32,132 nt of DNA, taken from NCBI GenBank assembly GCA_016793885.1, contig JAEUHE010000026.1:1-32132 (forward strand). Direction: 5' to 3'. This stretch comes from Verrucomicrobiales bacterium (GTDB lineage: Bacteria; Verrucomicrobiota; Verrucomicrobiia; Limisphaerales; UBA11320). Of the stretch, positions 16,037-26,540 are shown one piece after another. The notes below the pieces were generated by a model. It saw only the letters and a list, made by a program, of their open reading frames with translations, was not told the DNA's origin and made no database searches. Position numbers and translations under genes: made by a program. The first letter of the stretch is position 1; each line of letters begins with the position of its first letter.

Positions 16037-16462
16037 TCAGGGTTGGTTGGCCATCACGAAGTGGAGCATCAGCAAGGTCAGGCCAAAGTAGGTGAACATC
16101 TGGAAGGTGCCATTGTAGTCGGCGGTGAGCCACTGGCCTAGGGCGAGCTGAAGGAATACAAACAGGCTCCAGACCAGGGTTGCCAGCAGCCAGATGGGGG
16201 TGGATCGACGGATGAACTCACCTCGGCCGAGGGCGATGGCAGCGAGGAGGAAGGCAGCGAGTTCACTTGCGGTTAGCAGCCAGAAGGTGGCCGTAAGACC
16301 GGGAAAGCTCGCCAGGAAGGTAGGCCCGAATTTTCCATCGAACCACGAGGGAACCCCGGACCTGAGCTTATCTATCCCGGCGAATCCCCAGACCATAAGG
16401 ATCAGGAGGTTGATGGCCAGCAGGGCTCCGTTGCGAATCAGGGGGGTGATGGTTGCATTCAT
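16037..16462 (-). CDS. DoxX-like four-helix membrane protein
   Basis: A 141-residue integral membrane protein with four hydrophobic segments (about 9-26, 50-78, 88-110, 118-137). [13 protein letters not shown] in the first helix and loop matches the GxxKL-type signature of the DoxX family, which is associated with quinone or thiosulfate-related electron transfer in some members but is functionally varied. Its start codon overlaps the stop of the ATPase gene upstream (ATGA), and GGAG nine bases before the ATG lies inside that gene, so translation is probably coupled. Why a DoxX-like protein follows an amino acid transporter is unclear. It is the last gene of the operon. Confidence 0.7.
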
Positions 16463-17211
16463 AATTTGGAACTCCGTCTCAAAAATTCGCGCGTCCTCTC
16501 CAATCGAGGAGCGTTGAAGAGTTGCTCGGGAGGTCCCTCCTCCCCGATCATTCCCTGGTCGAAGAAGATCACCCGATCGGCCATCTCGCGCGCGAAGCTC
16601 ATTTCATGGGTCACGACGATCATGGTCATGCCCTCTTCCGCCAGATCCCGCATCACTTTCAAAACCTCCCCCCGCAACTCGGGATCCAGTGCGCTGGTCG
16701 GCTCGTCGAAGAGCATCGCCTGCGGACTCATGGCGAGCGCTCGCGCAATGGCGACCCGTTGCTGCTGTCCGCCGGAAAGCTGGCTCGGGTAGAACCCGGC
16801 GCGATCTTCCAAGCCTACCTTGCGTAGGAGTTCCCTGCCGCGCTCCTCAGCGCTTTCAGCCGTCTCTCCCTTCACGACGCGGGGCGCTTCCGTGATGTTC
16901 CGGAGCACGGTGAGATGCGGAAAAAGGTGAAAACTCTGGAACACCATGCCGGCCCGCAGGCGGAGCTGGCGTTGTTTTTCGCGATCCTCCGTCGTGAGCG
17001 TTTGGCCATGACGCTCGAACTGCAAGCCGTCGATCGTCACCGATCCCGAATCCATCGATTCCAATTGGTTGAGGCAGCGTAAAAAGGTGCTCTTGCCGCA
17101 GCCGCTGGGACCGATCAACACGATCGCCTCGCCGCGCGTTTGGCTCAGCGAAATGCCCTTCAAGACTCGCTGCGCGCCATAGGATTTGACCAGGTCCTTA
17201 ACGACGATCAT
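16459..17211 (-). CDS. Polar amino acid ABC transporter ATPase (GlnQ-like)
   Basis: A 250-residue ABC ATPase of the polar amino acid uptake family. Walker A is GPSGCGKST (34-42), the Q-loop is in [15 protein letters not shown] (89-103), the signature is LSGGQ (145-149), Walker B is MLFDEP (166-171), and the switch histidine is H202 in VVTHE. Family length is about 245. It overlaps the binding protein-permease gene by 14 bases and has the best ribosome binding site in the window, AAAGGAGG seven bases before the ATG inside the upstream gene. It should dimerise and drive import through the fused permease. The substrate is probably a polar amino acid, but it cannot be specified. Confidence 0.93.
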
Positions 17212-18844
17212 AGCTCAGCCTCCTTTCCAGACGCGCTGCGAGCAGCGATGCCGGGTAGCTCATTCCGAAGTAGATCGCGGCTGTGACCAGCCCGAGGCCG
17301 ATGTAGTCGTAGGTTGCCGTCGCCAGCATCCCGTAAACCTTGGTGAGTTCGACCATCGTGATCACCGACACCAGCGAGGAGTCCTTGAAAAGCGCGATGA
17401 AATCGTTGGTCACCGGAGGAAGAATGAGGCGTAGCGCTTGAGGTAGGACTATCCAGCGCAGGGTTTGTGATCTTGTCATGCCCAAAGCCGCCGCAGCTTC
17501 GAACTGGCCTCGTGAGATGGCTTGGATTCCGGCCCGATAGTTTTCCGCTTCGTAGGCTGCGTAGTTGCAGCCCAAGCCGATGACCGCGGCGGAAAAAGCG
17601 CTCAGCCGCAACCCAATGGTCGGTAGGCCGTAGTAAATCAGGTACAGTTGGATCAGCAATGGAGTGCCTCGGAACACCTCGATATAGATCGCCGCCAACC
17701 AGCTGATGGGTTTCGGTCCGTACAAGCGGGCCAGGGAGAGAATCAATCCGAGCGCGACGGCCAGGCCCATCGAGAGCACGGAAATGAGAACCGTCACACC
17801 AGCTCCCTTAAGCAGCAGCGGCAGATACTTGTCCAGATTGCTCCAAGTGGATCCGGGGGCGGTGGCGGCTGGTGTCGTGGATTCCTGGTAGCTGTCGAGC
17901 TGCGCCTGTCGCTGGTCCCAAACTCCATAACGAGAATAGATGCGCTCGATGGTTCCGTCCTGACGAAGATCCCGCAGAGCCTGATTCACGGCTTGGATGA
18001 GATTCGTGTCATTCAGACGGGCCGCGATTCCGTAATAGCCGGGAGCGAACGCTTGGCCGCTGCGTTTGAGCTGGGGCTCCTTCTGGAGATAGTAGACGGC
18101 GATCGGCAGATCAAGCACCACTGCATCGATGCGGCGGTTGTTGAGATCGCGGAAGCCCTCAACATTTCCCGGGTACACCCGCAGATCAGCAGCGCCGAAA
18201 TCGCGGAGAACTCGTTCTGCCGCCGAGGCTGATAGCACGCCCACCGCCTTACCGTTGAGGTCGGCGAGCTGCAAATCGTCCCGGTCCTCCTTGCGGACGA
18301 CGATCTGCTGGGAGTAGGCGAAGTAGGGAATGCTGAACAGCACCTGCTCGCGCCGCGAGTCAATGATCTCGAGCCCGTTGATGATGACGTCGAAATCGCG
18401 CCGCTGCAGGGCGGGCACTAATCCATCCCACATGTTTTGAACCATCTCTGCCCGGACCCCCAATTTAGCCCCCAGCGCCACGGCCAGTTCGACTTCGAAA
18501 CCGATCATGCGGGATGGCTGTTCCGGATCAGGGTACACGAACGGAGCTCCGCCTTCCCCATCCCCACCCCAGAGCAAGATGCCACGGCTGCGAATTTGCG
18601 ACAGCGTATCCTCGGTCGGATCGGCGGCTCCGAGGGCGCTCGATGTCCAGAGACCCCCGAGTGCCAGCCAGAGGAGGAGCAACGCGCCACGAAGCGGATG
18701 GCACCCATTCCATCTGCTGGCCCCGGCTGCGCCGGGTTGGAGATGTAACCCATGCATTCCAGCCGGGAGCGGATCAAGCCTCAGGGAACCGCCTAAAGGC
18801 GGAACTCCGTGCGGAAGATCTGTCATTTGCGTTTTTTGAGCCAC
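17198..18844 (-). CDS. Fused amino acid binding protein and ABC permease
   Basis: Two proteins that are normally separate are joined in one chain of up to 548 residues. After a signal-like hydrophobic segment (about 53-71), residues about 78-325 are a family 3 solute-binding domain ([47 protein letters not shown]). A linker rich in Ser, Thr and Ala follows, then a HisM/GlnP-type permease (about 340-548) with the EAA loop near [25 protein letters not shown]. Such fusions are known in some Gram-positive and PVC-type bacteria. The binding domain should face the periplasm, tethered to the channel. The start is uncertain: GTG 18844 overlaps the dehydrogenase gene by 22 bases, ATG 18826 and ATG 18757 are also in frame, and the first 50 residues are encoded by palindromic repeat-like DNA rather than conserved sequence. 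Confidence 0.88.
18711..18802. repeat. Two hairpins inside the 5' end of the transporter ORF
   Basis: 18711-18745 folds with CATCT/AGATG outside and CCCGGC (18722-18727), loop TGC, GCCGGG (18731-18736) inside. 18789-18802 is CCGCC, loop TAAA, GGCGG. The sequence between resembles dispersed repeats that I recall from Verrucomicrobia. On the - strand these hairpins fall at the start of the binding protein-permease gene and could either be translated as a spacer before the signal segment or form a leader that affects its translation. Confidence 0.5.
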
Positions 18845-19933: not shown

Positions 19934-21166
19934 ATGCACCCTCTGGAACGGATTGTAGCGAGTCTCGCTTTGCTCTCCCTGGTGAGCGGAATTGGGAAGG
20001 CGGCAGAAGCCAAAATGAAAACCATTCACTCTCAACCGAGTTTTGTTCTTTCGACTCCCCAGGTGGAATTGGCAGTCACCCGTCTCGGCGGCCATTTGGC
20101 TCCGGTACGGTTTTATCGGAACACTCCGGCTCCGGTGCAGCCGTACCACATCAGCCCCTGGCAGGATGAAAAGCCATCGCCGATGCCGGCCCCGGTGTTG
20201 GTTCCGCTGAGAGGCGATTTTTTCTGCCTACCCTTTGGCGGCAATGCCGAGGAGGTCCAGGGAGAGAAGCATCCGCCGCATGGGGAGGTGGCAGGCAGCC
20301 GCTGGCAACTCGTCTCCTCGGTTCAGCAGGGGACGATCAACACGTTAACCCTCGCACTGGAGACTCGGGTCCGCGCGGGGCGTGTGACGAAGGAGATTTC
20401 CTTGGTGGATCAGGAAAATGTGGTGTATTCGCGCCACACGATCGAAGGATTTGCCGGGCGGGTTCCGCTGGGGCATCACGCCACCTTGGCGATGCCCGAA
20501 AAGCCGGGAGCGGTTCAGATCGCGACCAGCGCAATCCGGTTTGGCATGACCTGCCCGGGACTCTTTAGTGATCCTGCCAAGGGTGAGTACCAATCCCTAC
20601 TGCCCGGGGCTCGTTGGTCGAATTTGACGCAAGTGCCCGTCTGGGCCAAGGACCAGCCCGATGCGGATCTGACCCGCCTCCCGGCGCGTAAAGGCTATGC
20701 CGATCTGATTCAGCTGGCCAACGAGAGCTGGGAGAGCACGGGGGGACCGGCTTGGACGACGGCGACCTTCGCGGAAGCCGGCTATGTTTGGTTTTCGCTC
20801 AAGGATCCGGAGGTCCTGGCCAGCACCGTCTTCTGGATTGAGAATCACGGACGATACGGCCATCCATGGAAGGGGCGGAACCACTGCCTGGGGCTGGAGG
20901 ACGTGACCGCCTACTTCGCCGACGGCTTGGCGGCTTCGATGGCGGACAACGTGCTCACCCGCCAAGGCCTCAGGACGGCCCTCGAGCTGCGGGCTGACCG
21001 CCCCACCTTCGTGAACTACATTCAGGGAGTGGTAAAGATTCCAACTGGCTTTGAGCAGGTCAAAACCCTCGAGTTCAGCCCCGGGCAGGTCGCCTTTGTG
21101 TCGACGGCCGGCCACCGGGTATCCGCGCCCGTGCGGCATGAATTCCTGCGAACCGGTAAGCTTTAA
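19934..21166 (+). CDS. Secreted aldose 1-epimerase-like protein
   Basis: A 410-residue protein with a signal peptide (about 1-24, ending KAAEA). The rest reads as a galactose mutarotase-type beta-sandwich: VELAVTRLGGHLAPVRF near residue 50, LGHHATLAMPE near 180, and WIENHGRYGHPWKGRNHCLGLEDV near 300-325, whose histidines and acidic residue are in the places expected of a sugar-binding cleft. I cannot identify the catalytic histidine and glutamate with certainty, so it may bind sugar without epimerising it. It opens the sugar transporter operon (55 bases before the RbsB-like gene) and is divergent from the dehydrogenase gene, sharing a 109-base upstream region. A role in presenting a monosaccharide to the transporter fits, but is inferred. 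Confidence 0.65.
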   Translation: MHPLERIVASLALLSLVSGIGKAAEAKMKTIHSQPSFVLSTPQVELAVTRLGGHLAPVRFYRNTPAPVQPYHISPWQDEKPSPMPAPVLVPLRGDFFCLPFGGNAEEVQGEKHPPHGEVAGSRWQLVSSVQQGTINTLTLALETRVRAGRVTKEISLVDQENVVYSRHTIEGFAGRVPLGHHATLAMPEKPGAVQIATSAIRFGMTCPGLFSDPAKGEYQSLLPGARWSNLTQVPVWAKDQPDADLTRLPARKGYADLIQLANESWESTGGPAWTTATFAEAGYVWFSLKDPEVLASTVFWIENHGRYGHPWKGRNHCLGLEDVTAYFADGLAASMADNVLTRQGLRTALELRADRPTFVNYIQGVVKIPTGFEQVKTLEFSPGQVAFVSTAGHRVSAPVRHEFLRTGKL

Positions 21167-21221: not shown

Positions 21222-22220
21222 ATGACCCCTTTTATGAAACCCTTATTGCTCAGCAGCCTGATGGTCGCGCTGGCCGTTCTCACCGGTTGCAAACCCTCCG
21301 CCGAGTCTGGTAAAGCGCCTGCCTCTAGTGCCAGCTCCTCCTCGATGGCGCAGGGAACCATCGGAGTCAGCTTGCTCACCCTCGACAACCCCTTCTTCAA
21401 AGTCATCGGAGACTCCATCACTGCGGAGGGCCGGAAACATGGCTACGAGGCCATTGTGGTCAGCGGGGATAAGGACGTGGCCAAACAGGGTAATCAGATC
21501 AAGGACTTTATCGTGCGCAAAGTGAGCGCGATCGTCCTGAGCCCCTGCGATTCGAAGTCCATCATCCCCGTGATCCAGGAAGCGAACGCCGCGGGGATTC
21601 CGGTGTTCACGGTCGACATCCCCTGTAACGAGCCGGGTGTCAAAATTGTGACTCAGGTGGCTACCGATAACTTCGGCGGAGGCAAGGAAGCTGCGCAGGC
21701 GATGATCGAAGCGTTGGGTGAAGCCGGCGGCAAAATTGCCATCCTCCACTTCAAGCAGGCCGAGTCATGCCTCCTCCGGGTCAAGGGCTTTAAGGAAGTC
21801 ATCGAGGCCCACAACGCGGGCAGCAAATCCAAGATCACGATCGTGACCGAATTGGAGAGCGGTGGCGCCAAGGATATGGGATTCAAAGCCGCCGAGGATT
21901 CGTTGCAGGCGCATCCCGATCTGCGCGGCATCTTCGCCATCAATGACCCGGCTGCCCTTGGGGCGCGCGCGGCGCTGGAGAAAGCCGGCAAGGCTCAGCA
22001 GATCGTCATCGTGGGCTTTGATGGCCAGCCGGAAGGAAAGCAGGCCATCAAGGATGGAAAGATTTACGCCGATCCCATTCAGTTCCCCGACAAGATGGGA
22101 GTTCAGATCGTGGACTCGATTCGGCGTCATTCCAAAGGGGAGACCCTGCCGCCTCAAATCTTGATCCCAACCAGCCTGTATCGCAAGGCGGATGCGCTCA
22201 AGGACCCCACGTTGAATTGA
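21222..22220 (+). CDS. Sugar ABC transporter substrate-binding lipoprotein (RbsB-like)
   Basis: A 332-residue lipoprotein. The lipobox LTGC places the acylated cysteine at C23, followed by a linker rich in serine and alanine. The mature part is a type I periplasmic binding protein of the ribose/galactose family: TIGVSLLTLDNPFFKVIGDSI, VVSGDKDVAKQGNQIKDFI, DIPCNEPGVKIVTQVATDNF and VIVGFDGQPEGKQAIKDG. Members bind monosaccharides or related cyclitols between two lobes. The exact sugar (ribose, allose, fructose or another) cannot be inferred. It is followed by its ATPase after 55 bases and belongs to the 19934-25112 operon. Confidence 0.92.
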   Translation: MTPFMKPLLLSSLMVALAVLTGCKPSAESGKAPASSASSSSMAQGTIGVSLLTLDNPFFKVIGDSITAEGRKHGYEAIVVSGDKDVAKQGNQIKDFIVRKVSAIVLSPCDSKSIIPVIQEANAAGIPVFTVDIPCNEPGVKIVTQVATDNFGGGKEAAQAMIEALGEAGGKIAILHFKQAESCLLRVKGFKEVIEAHNAGSKSKITIVTELESGGAKDMGFKAAEDSLQAHPDLRGIFAINDPAALGARAALEKAGKAQQIVIVGFDGQPEGKQAIKDGKIYADPIQFPDKMGVQIVDSIRRHSKGETLPPQILIPTSLYRKADALKDPTLN

Positions 22221-22275: not shown

Positions 22276-23769
22276 TTGACTGTGGCTCCACCACCGCTCC
22301 TGGAGATGCGGGGAATAGCAAAAGCTTTCCCGGGAGTCCAAGCGTTGAGAGGTGTCAGCTTGCAGTTGCGGGCGGGCGAAGTCCTGGCGTTGTTGGGGGA
22401 GAATGGGGCCGGCAAGAGCACGCTCATGAAAATCCTCGGAGGCGCGCATTTGGCTGATCGCGGCAGCCTGAGCATTGCTGGCCAACAACTGTCGATCGCC
22501 TCGCCCGCTGACTCGCGAGCCGCGGGCATCGCGATCATCTATCAGGAGTTCAACCTGATTCCCGCCCTGAACGCCGTTGAAAACATCTTCCTGGGCCAGG
22601 AGCAGGTTCGCATGGGCTTTATCACCCGCGCCTCGGAGCGTTCGCGGGCGGCTGACCTCTTCGCGCAACTGGGGGTGGACCTTGATCTGGACACTCCCTG
22701 TCGGCGGCTTACCACGGCGCAGCAGCAGCTAGTTGAGATCGCGAAGGCGCTGGCTCTCAACGCGCGCATCATTGTGATGGACGAGCCCAGCGCGGCGCTG
22801 ACTTCTCATGAAGTCGACCGACTGTTCCAAATCATCCGGGAGTTGAAGGCCAAGGGCATCGGAATTGTTTACATCAGCCATCGGTTGGAGGAGATCTTCA
22901 CGATCGCCGATCGCGTGCAGGTGCTTCGCGATGGTGCGGACGCCGGGGAGCGTTTGATCGGAGACTTGGACCGGCACGAGCTGATTCGGCTGATGGTGGG
23001 ACGTGAGTTGACCGATGAGTTTCCGAAGCGCGCCTCGTGCATCGGGGAGCCGGTGTTGGAGGCGATCGGCTTGAGGCGTGGTTCCGCGGTTCGCGATGTT
23101 TCGCTCACCTTGCGCCGCGGGGAGATTTTGGCGCTGACCGGCCTGGTAGGCTCCGGCCGGACCGAGACGGTTCGGCTGCTGTTCGGGGCTGACCAGCGAG
23201 AGCAGGGGATCGTTCGTGTTCGAGGACAGGAGCGAGCCTTGCGCACCCCGTGCGAAGCCATCGCGGCGGGGATCGGTTTTTTGACCGAGGATCGCAAGTT
23301 GCAAGGCCTGGTGCTCCAGCACTCCGCCCGCGAGAACTATTCCCTTCCGAACCTCAACGACCTGTCCCGACACGGCTTCGTGCGACACGCGGCGGAACGC
23401 TCCGGTTTTCAGCACTACGCACACGCCCTTCGCATCAAGTTGGCCGGCCCTGAGCAGAGGGCGGGGGCTCTGTCGGGAGGAAACCAGCAAAAGATCGTTC
23501 TGGCCAAGTGGTTGGCCCGGCAGTGCGATGTCCTGATTTTCGATGAGCCTACTCGGGGCATTGATGTTGGGGCGAAGTACGAGATCTATCTGCTGATGAA
23601 CCAGTTGGTGGCGGAGGGCAAGGCGATTCTGATGATCAGTTCCGAACTGCCGGAGGTTTTGGGAATGGCGGATCGCATTCTGGTGATGCATGGAGGGCGG
23701 GTGACCGGGGAGGTTTGCGATGTGAAATCAACGACTCAGGAGGAGATCATGCGGTTGGCCATGGCGTGA
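22276..23769 (+). CDS. Sugar ABC transporter double ATPase (RbsA/MglA-like)
   Basis: A 497-residue tandem ABC ATPase. The first domain has Walker A GENGAGKST (41-49), a signature in the variant form LTTAQQQ (145-151) usual for this family, and Walker B VMDEPSAAL (167-175). The second has the degenerate Walker A GLVGSGRTE (289-297), an intact LSGGNQQK (399-406) and Walker B LIFDEPTRGID (420-430). As in RbsA/MglA, the second site is probably poorly catalytic because of the Walker A lysine change. The TTG start at 22276 is used because GAGGAG lies nine bases upstream; a GTG two codons later is also possible. It feeds ATP energy to the RbsC-like permease, whose gene starts eight bases after this stop. 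Confidence 0.92.
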   Translation: MTVAPPPLLEMRGIAKAFPGVQALRGVSLQLRAGEVLALLGENGAGKSTLMKILGGAHLADRGSLSIAGQQLSIASPADSRAAGIAIIYQEFNLIPALNAVENIFLGQEQVRMGFITRASERSRAADLFAQLGVDLDLDTPCRRLTTAQQQLVEIAKALALNARIIVMDEPSAALTSHEVDRLFQIIRELKAKGIGIVYISHRLEEIFTIADRVQVLRDGADAGERLIGDLDRHELIRLMVGRELTDEFPKRASCIGEPVLEAIGLRRGSAVRDVSLTLRRGEILALTGLVGSGRTETVRLLFGADQREQGIVRVRGQERALRTPCEAIAAGIGFLTEDRKLQGLVLQHSARENYSLPNLNDLSRHGFVRHAAERSGFQHYAHALRIKLAGPEQRAGALSGGNQQKIVLAKWLARQCDVLIFDEPTRGIDVGAKYEIYLLMNQLVAEGKAILMISSELPEVLGMADRILVMHGGRVTGEVCDVKSTTQEEIMRLAMA

Positions 23770-23777
23770 ATGATGCG

Positions 23778-25112
23778 ATGAAAACCACCTGGACGCGATT
23801 TTTATCGGACTACGGAATGCTTGTGGTGCTGTTGGTGCTGTGCGCTTTTTTCAGCCTGGTGACCTACTCGGAGCAAGCGCCCAGCGGGGGGGCGGCTGGA
23901 CAAGAAGTGGCGAGCGCTCTTCGTAGAGTTCTTCCACCAACCGGGACGATCCTGATCGCGGTCCTGGATCAACCTGACGATGCCGAATTTGCGCGAACCC
24001 TGGAGTCGGCCTGGGTCTCCGCGGGCGGTAAAGTGGCCGGTATCGCTCGGGGCGAACCGAAGGATGCTCGAGCGATTTTACAACGGTTGGCGGCAGAGGG
24101 ACAGAAGCTGGATGGAATCGGGTGCACTCCTGCGACGGCCGCCTGGCTGGTCTTCAAGGATCTTCCCGCGGACTTTGCCTCCCTGGGTTCTCCTCCGCTG
24201 ATTCGGCCAGCGAGCTATTGGTGGCCCAACTTCCTCAAGTCCGAGAACCTGCTGAACATTGCCAATCAGATCGCCGTTATTGCGATCGTGGCGATTGGCA
24301 TGACCATGGTCATCGTGACGGGTGGCATCGACCTATCCGTCGGCAGCCTCTTGGCGCTCTCAGCTGTTCTGACCTCGTGGACCATTCGGGAGTATGCGGG
24401 GGGGATTCAGGCGTCTGCGCTCGGGATGGCCCTCGCCAGCCTCTTCGCGATCCTTGTCTGCGGAGGAGTTGGAGCGTTCTCCGGATCGATGATCACTCGT
24501 TTTGGCATTCCTCCCTTCATTGTGACCCTCGCGATGATGCTGGTCGGTAGCGGGCTGGCGTACATCCTGGCGAAGGGTCAGTCCATTTATCAGATTCCGG
24601 ACTCGTTCGTTTGGCTTGGCCGCGAGGCTGACCTTCTGGGACTTCCCAACGCGGTGGTGCTTATGTTGGTGCTGTATGTCCTCGCTCACATTCTCATGTC
24701 TCGCATGAAGTGGGGCCGGTACCTGTATGCCGTGGGAGGAAATCGTGAGGCTGCTCGGCTCTCAGGTGTGCCAGTGGAGCGTGTGCTGATGCTCGCTTAT
24801 GTCGCGAGCGGACTACTCGCCGGGCTGGGGGGGGTGATCATGGCTTCGCAATTGAAAAGTGGCTCGGCTACGTATGGAAACATGTATGAGCTGTACGTCA
24901 TTGCGGCGGTGGTGGTCGGGGGAACCAGCCTGAGCGGAGGTGAGGGCAAGATCTTTGGAACCTGCATCGGCGCGTTCACCATTGCCGTCATTCAAAACGG
25001 CATGAACCTGACGGGTGTTGAAAGCTACACTCAGAAGGTGGTGCTCGGCTTGGTGATCTTGGGAGCGGTTCTGCTGGATAAATGGAGATCGAGCGCGAGG
25101 GCCGTGGCCTAG
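23778..25112 (+). CDS. RbsC-like sugar ABC permease with extra periplasmic domain
   Basis: A 444-residue permease from ATG 23778, about 120 residues longer than typical RbsC (about 320). Helix 1 is at about 12-30. Residues about 31-150 are then extra, before the conserved ANQIAVIAIVAIGMTMVIV and GGIDLSVGS (182-190) that mark the start of the usual permease core. The core shows EGKIFGTCIGAF near its end. The insertion reads strand-helix-strand-helix-strand-helix (TILIAVL, EFARTLESAWVSAGG, KVAGIARGE, AILQRLAAEGQ, LDGIGC, TAAWLVF), like one lobe of a periplasmic binding protein, and should lie in the periplasm. GTG 23766 would overlap the ATPase stop and is a possible start. It is the last gene of the sugar operon. 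The role of the insertion is unknown; docking of the binding protein is one idea. Confidence 0.9.
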   Translation: MKTTWTRFLSDYGMLVVLLVLCAFFSLVTYSEQAPSGGAAGQEVASALRRVLPPTGTILIAVLDQPDDAEFARTLESAWVSAGGKVAGIARGEPKDARAILQRLAAEGQKLDGIGCTPATAAWLVFKDLPADFASLGSPPLIRPASYWWPNFLKSENLLNIANQIAVIAIVAIGMTMVIVTGGIDLSVGSLLALSAVLTSWTIREYAGGIQASALGMALASLFAILVCGGVGAFSGSMITRFGIPPFIVTLAMMLVGSGLAYILAKGQSIYQIPDSFVWLGREADLLGLPNAVVLMLVLYVLAHILMSRMKWGRYLYAVGGNREAARLSGVPVERVLMLAYVASGLLAGLGGVIMASQLKSGSATYGNMYELYVIAAVVVGGTSLSGGEGKIFGTCIGAFTIAVIQNGMNLTGVESYTQKVVLGLVILGAVLLDKWRSSARAVA

Positions 25113-25166: not shown

Positions 25167-26378
25167 CTAAGCGCGCGTGGCGGTCGCGGATTGCTTCTGT
25201 CCGCGGTAGGTCGCCAGAAAATAGGCCAATACCACCAGGACCACCACGGCCAAGCCGCCCCAGTAGCGGGGCCAGTTGACGTGTCCATCCATCTCGCACT
25301 TCTGCAACCACCACCCTGTGCTGAGGTATCCGAACAGACTTCCGATTCCCGTGGTCATGAAGCTAAACAGAGCTTGGGCTCGCGTACGCCAGCTCGGATC
25401 AATCCGCTCGTTCAGGTAGACTTGGCCAAGGATGAACGAAAACGCGAACACGAACCCGTGGAGCACGACGCCGGCAATGACCCAAGCCGGATGGTTGAGC
25501 GAATAAAAGAAGTAACGCAAGAAACCCAAGCTTAACCCGGTGGCCAGAATCCACTTCAGGCGCCAGTTGAGCAGGAGTCGGGAAAGTAGGAGCATGGCTA
25601 CGACTTCGGTGACTTGGCCCAAAGACATCCAGGCGGCGGTGCGTTCCAGTCCAAGTGCCCGGAGGTGGGTGGGCGTGAACGGATAGAACGCGGCTAGCGG
25701 GACGGCGAAGAGGGCGGAAGTGACAAAGACCACCTGATGATCGCGCAGTTTGAGAAGGGTGAGGGCATCCAACCCCAGCCGCTGGATCAAGCTTGGCCGT
25801 TGGGACGACGCAAGAGGCTCGACTTGGGGAAGCCAGCGAGTGAAGAGAGCTAGGCCGCCCCAGACTGCCGCGCTGACATACACCGCTCTGAGCGAGGTGT
25901 CGGCTCCCATCAGGCTCACCGCCCAGCAGCCGACCATCCAGCCGATCGTTCCCATCGCCCGGATGGGGCCAAACTGTCGTTGAGGGTCTTTCAGTCGGCC
26001 CATGACAATGGAGGCTGCGAGGCTCGAGGTGGGGGCTATGCACAAGGAATACAATTGGATCATGGCCAGCACTGTCCATGGGCCGGCTCCACGGTAAATG
26101 ACCAGCGCGATGCAGATCAGCATTCCTCCCGCGGCCAGGCCCAGCCATCGCAGCAGCCGTGCCGGGGCTATGTGGCGGTCGGCCATCGCCCCGAAGATCA
26201 GAGGCGAGACCAGCGCGGCGATAGCGGAGCACGAGAATGCCAGAGCCTTGATCGAGTGCAGTCCGTGTACATCCAGGACCGGCCCCAGAGGCACGAACCA
26301 GGCTCCGAGAGCCATGCCGTGGAGGAACAGCAGCGCTGCCAGTTCAGCCAGCTCGATTCGGGTGTTGTCCGGACGCAC
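25167..26378 (-). CDS. MFS transporter, nucleoside:H+ symporter type (NupG-like)
   Basis: A 403-residue membrane protein from GTG 26378. It has about 12 hydrophobic segments in two halves. The features suggesting the nucleoside/LacY-type MFS branch are LFLHGMALGAWFVPLGPVLD in helix 1, SPLIFGAMADRHIAPARLLR, QFGPIRAMGTIGWMVGCW and the late HGFVFAFSFILGQVYLNERI. Family members import nucleosides or sugars by proton symport; the substrate here is unspecified. The frame continues upstream to 26477, but those 33 codons are proline- and arginine-rich and unlike the family, so the later start is used. It is convergent with the sugar operon and divergent from the redoxin gene, which begins about 160 bases away. 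Confidence 0.82.
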   Translation of the reverse strand: MRPDNTRIELAELAALLFLHGMALGAWFVPLGPVLDVHGLHSIKALAFSCSAIAALVSPLIFGAMADRHIAPARLLRWLGLAAGGMLICIALVIYRGAGPWTVLAMIQLYSLCIAPTSSLAASIVMGRLKDPQRQFGPIRAMGTIGWMVGCWAVSLMGADTSLRAVYVSAAVWGGLALFTRWLPQVEPLASSQRPSLIQRLGLDALTLLKLRDHQVVFVTSALFAVPLAAFYPFTPTHLRALGLERTAAWMSLGQVTEVVAMLLLSRLLLNWRLKWILATGLSLGFLRYFFYSLNHPAWVIAGVVLHGFVFAFSFILGQVYLNERIDPSWRTRAQALFSFMTTGIGSLFGYLSTGWWLQKCEMDGHVNWPRYWGGLAVVVLVVLAYFLATYRGQKQSATATRA

Positions 26379-26540
26379 TGAGATACTGCGCGCAGGCAAC
26401 AGGCGAAATTTCAAGCTCCGTCGCCGGCTGGGGGGAGGGGGAATAATCAGGGAGGAACCTCGCCCGCCTCCAACCACCGGGGACGATCAGCTCATTGATC
26501 CTCGTGACAACGCAGGCCCGACCAGCTTAGAGTGGCTTTC

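Follow-up and report, generated by a model that had tools for sequence, protein, structure and literature searches.

A predicted binding-protein lobe between the first two transmembrane helices of an RbsC-type sugar permease of Verrucomicrobiota and Planctomycetota

Introduction

What is an additional segment of about 120 residues doing between the first two transmembrane helices of an RbsC-type sugar permease, and where did it come from? The question is raised by a locus in a Verrucomicrobiales genome (contig JAEUHE010000026.1 of assembly GCA_016793885.1), of which we analysed a stretch of 32,132 nucleotides, referred to below as the window. The permease gene is the last of four, arranged in the order 410-aa open reading frame, RbsB-like lipoprotein, RbsA-like ATPase and permease. 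An initial annotation had proposed that the additional residues form half of a binding-protein lobe in the periplasm that could dock the RbsB-like lipoprotein or sense sugar on its own. Permeases with fused, complete binding domains are already known (PMC8025302), as are free single-lobe binding proteins (PMC10805632), and in the literature and in Pfam and NCBIfam we found no earlier description of a family-2 sugar permease with a single lobe of this kind between TM1 and TM2.

Results

The permease gene (23778..25112, plus strand) encodes 444 amino acids with a match to BPD_transp_2 (PF02653) in Pfam over residues 157-430, which spans positions 1-268 of the 269 in the profile with an E-value of 1.6e-46. 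In a full-length model (pLDDT 82) the transmembrane domain superposes on BtuC (1l7v) over 279 residues with a Z of 16.9 and an rmsd of 4.9, and a search of PDB sequences found no sequence relative of the permease. The protein falls below the NCBIfam equivalog cut-offs, the best being GguB with 232 of 450 bits, followed by RbsC (PRK09512) with 230 of 398, and the cut-offs for the other named sugar-permease equivalogs are likewise not reached. Judged by its sequence the permease is a member of the RbsC/BPD_transp_2 family, with ribose specificity not proven, and this membership also fits the RbsA-like ATPase and RbsB-like binding protein that adjoin it.

The first transmembrane helix, TM1 (residues about 8-29; 23799..23864, plus strand), is identified by hydropathy (a segment at residues 6-34), by a helix at residues 2-28 of the full-length model, and by an alignment that runs without gaps along TM1 of E. 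coli RbsC when the insert is removed; its N-terminus is taken as cytoplasmic from the known topology of RbsC. The transmembrane core common to ordinary RbsC proteins occupies residues 150-444 (24225..25109, plus strand). The ends of the insert were set by trying cut points against E. coli RbsC. The score is highest, 580 as compared to 549 with the insert in place, when residues 30-149 are deleted, and this yields a gap-free join of TM1 to TM2 in which the permease, cut between SLVT and PNFLKSENLLNI, aligns with STLS and PNFFTINNLFNI of E. coli RbsC. The inserted domain is thus exactly 120 residues long (23865..24224, plus strand), one codon away from the 23868-24227 first noted, and the cut-point test bears out the original observation that residues of about 31-150 are absent from ordinary RbsC proteins.

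Searches of Pfam, NCBIfam and PDB sequences gave nothing significant for residues of about 30-150; an FtsK_4TM match (4.7e-5) was dismissed, as it spans TM1 and the linker and occurs in only one of 34 members. The highest 19-residue hydropathy mean within the insert, 1.24, does not reach the value required here of a membrane segment, and because of the topology of RbsC the insert is predicted to lie on the periplasmic side, in the first periplasmic loop. Relatives within the order and phylum carry the insert at the identical position, with roughly 30-58% identity to it, so it is not a chance occurrence.

The structure of the domain was modelled with AlphaFold2 (residues 29-161, 81-sequence alignment), giving a pLDDT of 86.3 and a pTM of 0.78. 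The repeated strand-helix pattern described in the initial annotation is present in this confident model, in the order entry strand, helix, strand, helix, strand, helix, strand, short helices and exit strand. The structure prediction that had been suggested as a check shows the insert to be ordered, and disorder is ruled out, since across residues 11-110 of the domain model the mean pLDDT is at least about 88. The top Foldseek rows for the insert, whose E-values are modest (2e-3 at best), are with few exceptions periplasmic binding proteins; after re-ranking by VIA-align against the PDB, the 50 best rows all belong to this class (Z 9.6-12.0), and in most of them the matched part is the C-lobe. 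Residues 35-146 superpose on residues 103-234 of the E. coli ribose-binding protein (RBP) over 105 residues at 2.3 Å (Z 11.1), and the corresponding lobe in allose-, arabinose-, glucose- and xylose-type proteins aligns to them as well. In RBP, residues 104-235 form the C-terminal lobe, an uninterrupted stretch flanked by two hinge crossings, and the hinge strands would here lead into TM1 and TM2. We can therefore propose with good confidence, on the basis of the model, that the insert is one whole lobe with the C-lobe fold of a sugar-type periplasmic binding protein; a whole binding protein has two lobes and a hinge, whereas these 120 residues make up one lobe. The suggestion of a half binding-protein lobe holds as to the lobe fold, given the VIA-align ranking and the RBP superposition, with 'half' giving way to a complete lobe, and where a match to binding-protein N-lobes had been anticipated it is the C-lobe (RBP 103-234) that is matched.

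Sequence comparisons give a fainter signal. Among 81 insert members the most frequent Pfam matches are to Peripla_BP_6 (22 members, best 5e-4) and Peripla_BP_4 (13 members, best 1.2e-4), both below the curated cut-offs, and the best binding-protein family score in the members inspected is 20.3 bits against a cut-off of 31.7. In one member inspected, the matched part of the Peripla_BP_6 profile (116-200) falls at the beginning of the C-lobe, in the same register as the structure. Comparisons by hhalign of the insert with the local binding proteins, the C-lobe and the N-lobe gave probabilities of about 5% or less, no higher than shifted controls, and some members have weak Pfam matches to HEM4 and other alpha/beta families. 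Both of these last results would be expected if the fold match reflected a general flavodoxin- or Rossmann-like resemblance and the domain were unrelated to binding proteins; we consider this quite unlikely, as the best 50 VIA-align rows are without exception binding proteins, mostly matched in the C-lobe, and the two commonest Pfam matches are both to binding-protein families. With the Pfam matches below cut-off and hhalign yielding nothing, the fold is claimed confidently and common descent with binding proteins only as likely. A recent duplication of the neighbouring RbsB gene is unsupported, the hhalign comparisons having given nothing beyond the controls, and the lack of a profile relation to the local binding proteins likewise leaves descent from RbsB unsupported. 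With the register set by hand, no counterpart of RBP D215, Q235 and similar positions was identified in the insert.

The view that this is an unusual architecture for a family-2 permease is strengthened by a survey of 30 relatives, in which the insert occurs in 9 of about 210 PF02653 permeases (about 4%); this rules out that it is general in RbsC. The source genome encodes 11 PF02653 permeases, one with the insert. The insert-containing region was matched in 34 of 97 genomes of wider relatives (the source genome included, and one of the 34 marginal) and in 12 of 388 genomes of a phylum-wide sample; matches G047 and L051 were left out as partial or marginal. The pattern common to relatives is YGM..VL..LC.FFS..T..Q.P.G.AA ... 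G.P.D.R ... W ... P...WPNFLK..NLLN. Two peptide patterns, scanned against 84,980 species genomes, yielded 259 matched stretches, of which the best 80 were retained; the titles of those 80, from which the taxonomy comes, are of Verrucomicrobiota and Planctomycetota, except for a few MAGs with implausible names. We note that L084, L106 and L125 have 'Klebsiella pneumoniae' (one) or 'Proteobacteria' (two) titles on contigs with a verrucomicrobial-type operon, and these organism names are probably wrong. The insert is not peculiar to the source genome, and the homologue collection that had been called for places it, among the best 80 of 259, in one permease clade of these two phyla.

In a sample of 392 Planctomycetota genomes at least 30 carry the domain, this being a lower bound with at most ten candidates scored per genome; in several it lies at megabase positions in the first contig, so the domain is no artefact of fragmented assemblies. 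An assembly artefact is also ruled out by its presence in many unrelated assemblies, in some of them megabases into single contigs. A search for viral relatives found none, and carriage on plasmids was rejected, since the plasmid matches are permeases of less than 60% identity and 10 of 1921 records cover 80% of the query.

To trace the history of the domain we used a tree built from the transmembrane part alone, with the insert left out, of 54 carriers and 23 non-carriers. In these 77 rows a single change splits carriers from non-carriers (SH-aLRT 97), on an unrooted tree in which several non-carrier branches are long. The simplest reading of the sequences would be one gain in the ancestor of the carrier permease clade; a very old gain followed by loss elsewhere would be a less simple account. 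The Planctomycetota rows are placed among those of Verrucomicrobiota, and transfer between the two phyla is therefore likely.

Conservation within the insert is uneven. Six residues are invariant (Q33, G92, P94, R98, W123 and F133), three of which form the motif G92-x-P94-xxx-R98 (24051..24071, plus strand) in the first helix turn after the third modelled strand; a conserved turn and helix, T117...W123 (24126..24146, plus strand), follows the fourth, and both motifs are on the cleft side. The lobe passes into TM2 through the exit motif WPNFLK..NLLN (24222..24257, plus strand), in which W149 is found in 99% and P150, F152, N157 and N160 in 100% of aligned sequences. Residues R98, T117, W123, Y147 and W149, invariant or nearly so, are on the ligand-cleft side of the binding-protein fold, and loop conservation is 2.51 bits on the hinge/cleft side versus 1.77 bits on the distal side, for segments picked after viewing the model. 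We infer that the conserved face points to the permease mouth or to a docked RbsB. Mean pairwise identity is 54% for the lobe, 80% for the transmembrane domain and 78% for RbsB, such that the lobe diverges much faster than either of these.

The neighbouring genes are those of a sugar importer. The RbsB-like protein (21222..22220, plus strand) is a two-lobed sugar-binding lipoprotein with the lipobox LTGC (Peripla_BP_4, E 2.7e-55) and 32% identity to E. coli RbsB, and it retains 9 of 11 positions taken as ribose contacts. It is followed by an RbsA-like double ATPase with a TTG start (22276..23769, plus strand; PRK10762 RbsA, E 8e-165). Among the 68 loci with enough flanking upstream sequence to be counted, an RbsB homologue is beside the insert permease in 64 and RbsA is within reach in 51. 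The RbsA-like ATPase is absent from the stretch read in 17 (L060, L072 and L129, for example), and the importer genes are therefore often split; in L060 and L129 RbsB directly precedes the permease. Because an RbsB homologue is so regularly present, the lobe comes in addition to a complete binding protein rather than in its place.

The first gene of the group encodes a 410-aa protein (19934..21166, plus strand) with no assigned family and no Pfam, NCBIfam or PDB-sequence match, which is probably secreted; by eye alone, it has short motifs like those of sugar mutarotase-like proteins. Its homologue is found in 42 of the 68 loci, often adjoining the binding protein or the permease. This recurrence and the fast divergence of the lobe are both compatible with a structural domain that has no transport function and contributes to folding, to stability, or to contact with the envelope or with the 410-aa protein. 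Such a role seems improbable to us, given that the domain is retained with invariant residues across the whole clade and two phyla, and that 26 of the 68 stretches, some of which end early, show no 410-aa gene.

Two further features of the window were noted by inspection. On the minus strand at 17198-18844 is a 548-aa protein in which, judged by eye, a type I permease is fused to an amino-acid-type substrate-binding domain, with its ATPase adjoining (16459-17211); this is an ordinary fused-domain importer and a contrast to the insert permease. Downstream of the sugar importer, on the opposite strand (25167-26477, minus), stands a nucleoside-permease-like MFS protein that matches TIGR00889 with an E-value of 4e-56 but below its cut-off.

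Discussion

Comparison with known systems shows that the parts of the insert permease are familiar and their combination is not. E. coli RbsC and PF02653 share its whole transmembrane core but lack the ordered 120-residue TM1-TM2 domain, as do about 96% of the PF02653 permeases in the 30 relatives. The type I sugar binding proteins (RBP, 1dbp/2dri; Peripla_BP_4/6) share the fold of the contiguous C-terminal lobe, whereas the insert has no N-lobe or third crossover, is anchored in a permease, and, as far as profile comparison can detect, is unrelated in sequence to the local members of that type. A large periplasmic loop domain of a permease beside a separate binding protein is seen likewise in MalF-P2 of the maltose importer, although in a type I importer permease, in a different loop (MalF residues 91-271) and with a different fold; MalF-P2 is known to contact its binding protein, and for the insert such contact is only inferred. 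In GlnPQ and OpuA, too, a binding-protein fold is covalently attached to the permease, but as complete two-lobed domains at the permease end, whereas the insert is a single lobe between TM1 and TM2 of a permease that retains a separate RbsB in 64 of 68 loci and so departs from a fused SBD. RmSBP of Rhodothermus marinus (6k1w), a Foldseek match to the insert, occurs naturally as a single alpha/beta domain that resembles a C-lobe and has no N-lobe; it differs in being free-standing, near a chemoreceptor gene and of amino-acid-type resemblance (PMC10805632).

What might such a lobe do? Our preferred proposal, to which we give about an even chance, is that it was gained once by the permease of an RbsB-RbsA-RbsC-type importer and serves as an attached docking and gating element. 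Each subunit of the permease homodimer would carry one lobe, permanently attached and jutting over the periplasmic mouth, where it could hold the RbsB-like lipoprotein or the lobe face bared when that protein opens, the permease-borne C-lobe engaging the N-lobe or the rim of the opening RbsB. It might thereby help to open the RbsB-like protein and steer sugar into the pore, much as MalF-P2, which contacts MalE directly (PMC3150292), holds its binding protein. Lobes of RBP taken in isolation still fold and can pair again with their complement, though they bind no ribose (PMC10601554); contact between the permease lobe and a lobe of RbsB is plausible on these grounds. That the most conserved loops are found on the cleft/hinge side, the one continuing into TM1 and TM2, counts for docking; the fast divergence of the lobe, unexpected in a tight conserved interface, counts against it. 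Distances in the insert correlate more strongly with those in the cytoplasmic RbsA (partial r 0.69) than with those in RbsB (0.36), revealing no RbsB-specific coevolution, and docking accordingly stays hypothetical.

The conserved polar and aromatic residues on the ligand-cleft side (R98, T117, W123, Y147 and W149) could alternatively mean that the lobe itself binds or senses periplasmic sugar through its cleft-side loops (G-x-P...R and T/N-Q..T..W), regulating the importer or providing a low-affinity route free of RbsB, and the full substrate-binding domains fused in GlnPQ and OpuA offer a parallel (PMC8025302). Only a single lobe is present here, however, and isolated lobes of the type I ribose-binding protein do not bind ribose (PMC10601554). 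The adjoining gene moreover encodes a complete RbsB-like protein that keeps the usual binding positions, which makes independent sensing by the lobe unnecessary. Direct sugar sensing is thus less likely, and we regard the reading as a whole as unlikely.

RbsC-type permeases work as homodimers, and two lobes are therefore expected per importer. If these faced each other they could form a symmetric two-lobed site above the pore, and in binding proteins the face corresponding to the conserved one is turned to the partner lobe. A dimer of single lobes has also been proposed as the binding-protein ancestor (PMC10601554). Against this, RbsB would be forced to dock around or on top of the pair, and binding proteins join two different lobes rather than two C-lobes. 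We think it very unlikely that the lobes pair in this way, and as remote a prospect that the pair is a built-in flytrap over the pore which takes sugar from RbsB; were it true, the importer would be a living counterpart of the proposed single-lobed ancestor of periplasmic binding proteins.

Returning to the attached lobe as a docking and gating element, the docking of binding proteins on family-2 sugar permeases, and their opening by them, are poorly known, and the insert permease provides a direct handle on both. The insert adds a domain architecture that is absent from the curated libraries searched, and it marks a permease clade of two phyla with ecologically important carbohydrate uptake.
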